Positions 26,837 through 60,470 of a stretch of DNA of 64,000 nucleotides are shown here, in pieces; within the stretch, counting starts at the first letter, position 1; every line of letters begins with the position of its first letter. Position numbers and translations under genes: made by a program. The DNA is taken from assembly GCA_945876185.1 (NCBI GenBank), contig CAMCMZ010000005.1:1-64000 (forward strand), given 5' to 3'. This DNA is from Candidatus Kuenenia stuttgartensis. GTDB taxonomy: Bacteria; Planctomycetota; UBA11346. The notes beneath the pieces are model-generated. The model was not told the DNA's origin. It was given only the letters and a program-made list of their open reading frames with translations, and searched no databases.

Positions 26837-26948
26837 AGGTCGCGGCAGCGTGGGCCAGGGCCGGGGAACGAAAGAGGGAATGGGGCGGGGCGCTGCGGAC
26901 GTCCAATCACGTCAACACACCGAAACCGTTGGTCCCATCTGGCCGTTG

Positions 26949-27040
26949 CTGGGACCGCGCGCGGCTCGCGCGCCAGTGTCAATAGTATCGATCACGGTAT
27001 TCATGAAATGATCTGGCGCGCCAGCGGCGCGCGTTCCCAG
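26949..27040. repeat. Large stem-loop (28-bp arms) between ABC-F gene and infC
   Basis: The arms 26949-26976 and 27013-27040 are complementary at 25 of 28 positions, enclosing a 36-base, A+T-richer loop. It lies in the 315-base gap between divergent genes, about 110 bases ahead of the infC start. It could be a leader structure for infC or a small fold-back insertion; nothing in it encodes a protein. The rest of the gap holds no recognisable gene. Confidence 0.65.
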
Positions 27041-27151
27041 GGCGTTGCCGCTCACCGCGCCGGTCCCGCGCCCTGCCGACCTTGATCCTGGCCTGGGGTT
27101 TGCCATGGTTCGCCGCCAGCATCCTTCGCTCAACCCTCCTGGAGCCTCGTT

Positions 27152-59202: not shown

Positions 59203-60112
59203 ACTCGTCTCCGGCGTCGCCCAGTCCGCGCTGACCGCCGCGGTACCGTTGCTGCTCGCGGGCACCGGCGAACTCGTCGCCGAACGCGCCGGCGTCCTCA
59301 ACATCGGGCTGGAAGGCCTGATCCTCGCCGGCTGCATCGGCGGCTTCGCGGGCGCTGTGCTGGGTGGAACAGCGGGCGGCCTGTGGCTGGGCGTCGGCGG
59401 CGCGGTCGTGGCCGGCATGCTGGTGGCCGGTATCTTCGCCGTCGCCGTGGTCTATGCCCGGGTCGACCAGATCGTCGCCGGCATGGCGGTGAACCTGCTC
59501 GCCTTCGGTGCTGCCGGCACGATCTGGCATGCGCTCCAGGACGCCGGTCGCGACAGCCTGCCATCCGGCGCAGGCTTCGACCGGATCGCGCTCGGCGGAC
59601 CGATCGTGTTCGACCAGTACGGCCTGGGCTGGCTCGCGCTCGCCCTGGTCGCCGTGACCGGATGGATGCTGGCCAAGACCCGCGCCGGACTGGTGCTGCG
59701 CGCGCTCGGTGAGGCGCCTGAGGCCTGCGCCGTGGCCGGAATCGACGTCCTGCGCTGGCGTTTCGCCGCCGTGCTGGCCTGTGGTGCCCTCGCCGGCCTG
59801 GCCGGCGCGTACCTGAGCATCATGCGCACCCACAGCTTCGCCCCCGACATGAGCGGCGGCCTCGGCTTCCTCGTCCTCGCCCTGGTGATCTTCGGCCGCT
59901 GGCGCATCGGCGGCCTGGTCGTGGGTTGCCTCGGCTTCGGGCTGATCGATGCGGTGCAGCAGCAATTGCAGGGCGCCGGCGCGGCCGGAGCGGTGTCGTA
60001 CCGGCTTTTCCAGGCCCTGCCGTACCTGGCTGCGCTCTTCGCCCTCGCCGTGTTTCGGGGCCGGGGCAACGGCCCGGCGCAACTTGGTCGGCCGTGGCCT
60101 GAGGAACGCTGA
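59195..60112 (+). CDS. ABC permease (BMP/nucleoside-type importer, subunit 2)
   Basis: 305 residues with about eight hydrophobic segments. LLLAGTGELVAERAGVLNIGLEGLILAGC and LRALGEAPEACAVAGIDVLRWRFAAVLACGALAGLAGAYLS are the BPD_transp_2 hallmarks of the second permease (NupQ/YufQ type). It completes a full importer: binding protein, ATPase and two permeases. The operon ends 45 bases before the fold-back element at 60157. Confidence 0.9.
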   Translation: MAELVSGVAQSALTAAVPLLLAGTGELVAERAGVLNIGLEGLILAGCIGGFAGAVLGGTAGGLWLGVGGAVVAGMLVAGIFAVAVVYARVDQIVAGMAVNLLAFGAAGTIWHALQDAGRDSLPSGAGFDRIALGGPIVFDQYGLGWLALALVAVTGWMLAKTRAGLVLRALGEAPEACAVAGIDVLRWRFAAVLACGALAGLAGAYLSIMRTHSFAPDMSGGLGFLVLALVIFGRWRIGGLVVGCLGFGLIDAVQQQLQGAGAAGAVSYRLFQALPYLAALFALAVFRGRGNGPAQLGRPWPEER

Positions 60113-60156: not shown

Positions 60157-60440
60157 GGGCGTTGCCCAATGCTGTGAAGCTAAGGATCTGAGTATTCACA
60201 GCGAAATGGTGAGGGCCGACCCCGGGAGCGCCGAGCACCAGCTCGGCCATGCAATCCGGTACTAAGAGAAAGCGGATGGATTCAGGTGTAGCCTGGCACC
60301 ACCTGCCCTAAGGGAATCGATCCGAAGCCGAACTGGTGCTCGGCGTTCCCATGCACAGGTCCACGAAACGTTAGTGAAAAGCGAGGAAACGTTCGCTGAG
60401 GGTCGTTGCCCTCTTAGCTTCACAGCATTGGGCGTTGCCC
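60157..60440. mobile_element. 284-bp fold-back element with 17-bp TIRs and 11-bp direct repeats
   Basis: Terminal inverted repeats AATGCTGTGAAGCTAAG (60168-60184) and its complement (60413-60429) are flanked by identical direct repeats GGGCGTTGCCC (60157-60167, 60430-60440). Inside are arms with two mismatches over 24 bp (60224-60247 with 60327-60350), a GAGGGC/GCCCTC pairing (60211-60216 with 60407-60412), and smaller hairpins. No protein is encoded. It lies between the importer operon and the YhcH-like gene. It may be a MITE-type insertion or a structured RNA; both fit. Confidence 0.7.
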
Positions 60441-60470
60441 CATCGCCGCGCCCGGCTTCTGATGCCCGCC

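Follow-up and report, generated by a model that had tools for sequence, protein, structure and literature searches.

A probable IS4-type miniature element enclosing an inverted REP pair in a planctomycete genome

Introduction

Insertion sequences of the IS4 subgroup have -AATR- ends and generate direct repeats of 10-13 bp (PMC2266710 Table 1). Transposase-free DNA located between IS ends, and presumably moved in trans, is found in the MITEs of the IS231/IS4 family and in MIC231-type cassettes. REPINs and BIMEs are inverted pairs of REPs, tagged palindromes that form hairpins, with conserved arms and a variable spacer (PMC3116915). REPINs are thought to spread via RAYT enzymes. The two classes of element are associated where IS elements insert into REPs, as in the IS4-family ISRm22, and the target is then palindromic (PMC1525189).

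Here we describe a 262-bp element in a 64-kb window (the whole stretch of DNA that was analysed) of a planctomycete genome, referred to as G000 (3.8 Mb in 123 contigs, 82% complete). The element shares with E. coli IS4 the ends AATGC..AG.TAAGGAT (15/20) and a target duplication of about 11-12 bp, and its full-length relatives have, like IS4, a single-ORF DDE transposase with a YREK motif. It differs from IS4 in having no transposase of its own, and in its preference for GGGC-N3-GCCC targets, which are unlike the site used by E. coli IS4. Like the IS231/IS4-family MITEs and the MIC231-type cassettes, it is transposase-free DNA between IS ends. In comparison with both, however, its TIRs and host are different, and what it carries is a pair of REPs, not genes. 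This pair has the organization of a REPIN, but it is located inside an IS4-type MITE, as are most copies in G000. The nesting is the opposite of that in ISRm22-type insertions, with the REP pair inside the transposable element. No paper on REPINs inside MITEs was found among the open-licence papers searched.

Results

Overall organization of the element

The element covers positions 60168-60429 and has no transposase gene. It is bounded by a left TIR of 17 bp, AATGCTGTGAAGCTAAG (60168-60184, plus strand), and by its perfect inverse on the right, CTTAGCTTCACAGCATT (60413-60429, minus strand). An 11-bp target-site duplication, GGGCGTTGCCC, flanks the element on both sides (60157-60167 and 60430-60440), and the two copies are identical and in the same, direct orientation (plus strand). 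Nested inside are two 24-bp arms, GGGAGCGCCGAGCACCAGCTCGGC (60224-60247, plus strand) and an inverted copy (60327-60350, minus strand) with exactly two mismatches, separated by a spacer of 79 bp (60248-60326). The TIRs, the direct repeats and the nested stems had all been described in an earlier note on this DNA, and each of them is present as described there; the identity of the stems as a separate element, a pair of REPs, was not part of that reading. The same note had proposed TTCACAGC as an alternative partner of the left TIR. This sequence is present on the plus strand, but at 60195-60202, not at 60194-60201.

The element lies in an intergenic gap. On its 5′ side an ABC transporter operon ends with its second permease gene (stop at 60112); the operon encodes a Bmp/PnrA-like substrate-binding protein, an ATPase and two BPD_transp_2 permeases. 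On its 3′ side is a YhcH/YjgK-family gene, with its ATG at 60462. The window strand is predicted to fold with −154.6 kcal/mol, against a mean of −99.7 for shuffled sequences (z = −10.5), and the opposite strand is also very stable when folded (z = −9.2).

Copies in the genome and target duplications

A search for other copies, which the earlier note had suggested, finds ten more in G000, with 83-94% identity, so that the family has 11 full or partial members including the window copy. Given these ten further copies elsewhere, the 262-bp structure is not a chance arrangement. Both ends are present in seven of the copies (the window copy, C1, C16, C18, C106a, C15 and C3a). The others are incomplete: C106b is cut by a contig end, C2 and C3b have no left end, and C20 consists of the core only. 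C106a and C106b are about 30 bp apart. The full copies differ from one another by 4-22%, and with this much divergence the family may be an old one that has ceased to transpose.

When the element is delimited as AATG...CATT, six of the seven two-ended copies are flanked by direct repeats that match at 9/11 to 12/12: GGGCGTTGCCC, GGGCGCTGCCC, GGGCCTGGGC(C/G), GGGCGAGAGCC(C) at two of the copies, and a diverged repeat at C1. The sequence of the duplication differs in most copies. The flanks of the seventh copy, C16, have no good direct repeat (7/11), and this copy may be a recombinant. When all 24 members of the TIR family are compared, the flank pairs of the same element have a mean score of 5.5, compared to −2.9 for crossed pairs, and the own-pair score was reached by none of 5000 permutations. 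The planctomycete copies show a preference for GGGC-N3-GCCC, an interrupted palindrome, as the target. This preference explains the GGGC/GCCC hairpin whose loop, as the earlier note had remarked, has the same orientation on both sides. An alternative delimitation of the window copy, with a 7-bp duplication, GCGTTGC, and longer TIRs (CCAATG...CATTGG), was set aside; the 11-bp reading is better for the other copies and for the IS4 family.

The copies are located at unrelated loci with differing flanks. Relatives of the transporter genes are present in six genomes of the same bacterial family with different downstream neighbours, and an orthologous empty site was not found among them. In two copies, L015 (contig C3) and L012 (contig C106), the near-identical flanks form CCAGGGGCGAGAGCCCCTGG, a perfect palindrome; another dispersed hairpin repeat may have been the target there.

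Relationship of the ends to IS4

Over its first 20 bp, AATGCTGTGAAGCTAAGGAT, the element matches the end of E. coli IS4, (T)AATGCCGATCAGTTAAGGAT, read from MG1655, at 15 of 20 positions, and no other site in the window does so on either strand. The start, AATG, agrees with the -AATR consensus of the IS4 subgroup (PMC2266710). The length of the duplications also corresponds to the 10-13 bp of the subgroup, with 11/11 for the window copy and 9-12 matching bases over 11-12 bp for six of the seven copies.

The outer TIR is found in nine of 23 genomes of the same bacterial family, and two full-length elements are informative. In genome G022, a 1430-bp element (L029) bounded by matching TIRs encodes a protein of 447 residues, and in genome G017 a 1412-bp element (L078) is bounded by a variant TIR and has a 10/11 duplication. 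The proteins of both are IS4 family transposases (NF033592, at 4.8e-45 for L029 and 3.1e-43 for L078) and also match Pfam DDE_Tnp_1. In L029, the segment YHHRWRIETAFRELK agrees with the Y-2-R-3-E-6-K signature, as read by eye. The identity between the relatives' transposase and InsG is only 22% (2e-11), and they therefore represent a distant branch. In G000, as covered by the 82% complete assembly, no IS4-subgroup transposase with matching TIRs was found, only a weak, sub-threshold IS4 fragment. The source copy may have been lost, or it may be in the missing 18% of the genome.

The earlier note had offered a MITE-type insertion as one of two readings, and the multiple copies, the target duplication of each copy and the TIRs common to full-length IS4-family insertion sequences all bear this out. 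From these comparisons, the element is very probably a non-autonomous MITE that belongs to the IS4 subgroup of the IS4 family and prefers GGGC-N3-GCCC targets. It represents a new, well-delimited MITE family in a planctomycete, and the nesting is its unusual feature.

A gene cassette with the same kind of ends was observed in genome G021 (L040; contig C96, 1512-2782). It has IS4-type ends and a 9/11 direct repeat, and carries genes for a ParE-like toxin and a Phd/YefM antitoxin without a transposase. L040 is a MIC-like cassette of the same TIR family.

The nested arms and RAYT genes

The inner 24-bp arm, GGGAGCGCCGAGCACCAGCTCGGC, is a GGAG-tagged palindrome found at dispersed sites, with 34 matches in G000, about 290 in G001, a sister species, and 97 in genome G019, compared to 0-4 for controls. 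In the MITE the two REPs are 98 bp apart, close to the spacings of 99-109 bp that are common among the free inverted pairs of G001. G001, with its roughly 290 REPs, has no match to the outer TIR. By these sequence comparisons, the inner arms do not belong to the IS4 design but form a dispersed element in their own right, made up of two inverted REPs with GGAG tags.

RAYT-like Y1 transposase genes are present in G000, and those in the genomes studied here are flanked by GGAG palindromes that are built alike but have different stems (GGAGAGGCGAGCCCCAGCTCGCC, GGAGCGCCGCACTCCGTGCGGC and others). A RAYT gene flanked by exactly GGGAGCGCCGAGCACCAGCTCGGC was not seen among the loci examined. The inverted pair, the tagged dispersed palindrome and the RAYT-flanking build together identify the nested structure as a REPIN as defined by Bertels and Rainey (PMC3116915). 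The presence of REPs without a TIR match in G001 suggests that the REP is the older resident and the MITE its carrier here.

Similar nesting in other elements

In genome G015, which belongs to another genus, an unrelated inverted pair, GAACCGCCACGACGCCACGACGCCACGG, lies between the same IS4-type TIRs, and this pair is also found without the TIRs in G015 and G017. Two IS4-type right ends that stand alone in G000, L151 (C9, near 13012) and L150 (C14, near 514), adjoin a second GGAG-type REP, GCGCGCCAGCGGCGCGC, copies of which flank a RAYT-like gene (contig C12, 31441-31668). The second end of a longer element was not found within reach of either lone TIR. The L151 end is located just upstream of a nifD-like gene, as read by eye.

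The same TIR family is present in the Cytophagales MAGs JAAFKA and CANGYA, where it bounds MITEs of about 240-310 bp (L104-L126) with GGGCTTTAGCCC-like flanks. Their interiors are near-complete hairpins that hold smaller palindromes, and some copies fold almost wholly as one hairpin. As far as these sequences go, nesting inside IS4-type ends is more than a single accident.

Uneven conservation and break points

The seven full copies are not equally conserved along their length. Divergence is 3-4% in the REP arms and 6% in the right TIR, and 14-18% in the left TIR, the subterminal parts and the spacer, the REPIN spacer (18%) being the most divergent part together with the left TIR. Variable columns number 5 of 48 in the REPs and 79 of 216 elsewhere (Fisher p = 2.6e-4, for columns that are not strictly independent). 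Moreover, the copies that have no left TIR or neither TIR (C2, C3b and C20) all retain the whole REP pair, and their break points lie within 15 bp of its edges (n = 3). Such a pattern is expected if the REPIN itself is constrained or moving. Gene conversion between the arms or, with three cases, chance would also explain it.

Discussion

The fold of the element could also be read, as in the second suggestion of the earlier note, as that of a structured, possibly bistable RNA behind the transporter operon; such an RNA would be maintained for a regulatory function. The very stable fold on both strands (z of about −10 and −9) and the position at the 3′ end of the operon are consistent with such an RNA, but folds of this kind arise anyway from the inverted repeats of a transposon. 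Covariation in the long stems is at the level of shuffled alignments (0.040 compared to 0.036, with 122 of 500 shuffles as high), both helices have changes that break pairs, and an Rfam scan gives no match above chance. In five of the seven copies one base pair is lost from the helix between the left TIR and TTCACAGC, and the consensus at this place is TTCACTGC; the alternative partner proposed for a bistable switch is not conserved. No promoter- or terminator-like site was found when looked for, and the copies sit at unrelated loci with differing flanks. A conserved regulatory RNA is on this evidence very improbable, although the element may have some local influence on the adjacent genes. 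Another alternative would make the REPIN (or BIME) the only mobile unit, with the outer TIRs incidental and carried along. The low variability of the REP arms, and the loss of TIRs with retention of the REP pair in C2, C3b and C20, would fit. However, the target duplications are located exactly at the ends of the TIRs and not at those of the REPIN, and the TIRs alone recur in other genomes around transposase genes and unrelated interiors. We regard this explanation as extremely improbable.

The IS4-type MITE could also be extended to one with dual mobility, in which an IS4-type transposase moves the whole unit and a RAYT can process the core. The conservation of the REP arms, the break points near the REPIN and the RAYT-like genes in G000 point in this direction. 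On the other hand, the three truncations are explicable as ordinary deletions and the uniformity of the GC-rich arms as homogenisation by gene conversion, and no RAYT with exactly GGGAGCGCCGAGCACCAGCTCGGC beside it was found in the genome. Dual mobility is therefore a tentative proposal that we consider rather unlikely. The same doubt applies to its broader form, a compound element with two unrelated chemistries (DDE ends and a RAYT/HUH core), in which the IS4-type MITEs of Planctomycetota would repeatedly capture and spread local inverted pairs of palindromes.

For the IS4-type MITE itself, a mechanism can be proposed from what the sequences give of the family, its TIRs and duplications, its IS4 relatives and the identity of the REP. 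An IS4-type DDE transposase, supplied in trans, would bind the 17-bp TIRs, excise the 262-bp element and join it to a GGGC-N3-GCCC-like target, leaving an 11-bp (9-12 bp) duplication. The window copy would have landed in this way in the gap between the ABC transporter operon and the YhcH/YjgK-family gene. The REP repeat probably spreads through recognition by RAYT tyrosine transposases in this bacterial family, and as to the order of assembly we infer that a REPIN was captured by the MITE and then carried along with it. Such carriage would account for the location of 22 of the 24 closest REP matches in G000 (counted by hand) inside MITE copies.

The REP pair described here thus appears to ride in a cut-and-paste MITE, and in G000 it is mostly found there. 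Should this hold more widely, REPs and other fold-back repeats would owe part of their spread to hitch-hiking on IS4-type elements. A compound element, if real, would provide a second route of REPIN amplification.

Other GGAG-tagged palindromes

Regular arrays of GGAG-tagged palindromes were observed beside two RAYT-like genes. In G001 (L142, contig C6) the spacing is 147 bp, and in G015 (L143, contig C22) it is 38-45 bp. Within the window, positions 26948-27076 have a 71% match to a REP-containing stretch of contig C9, and on this similarity are probably another REP element.
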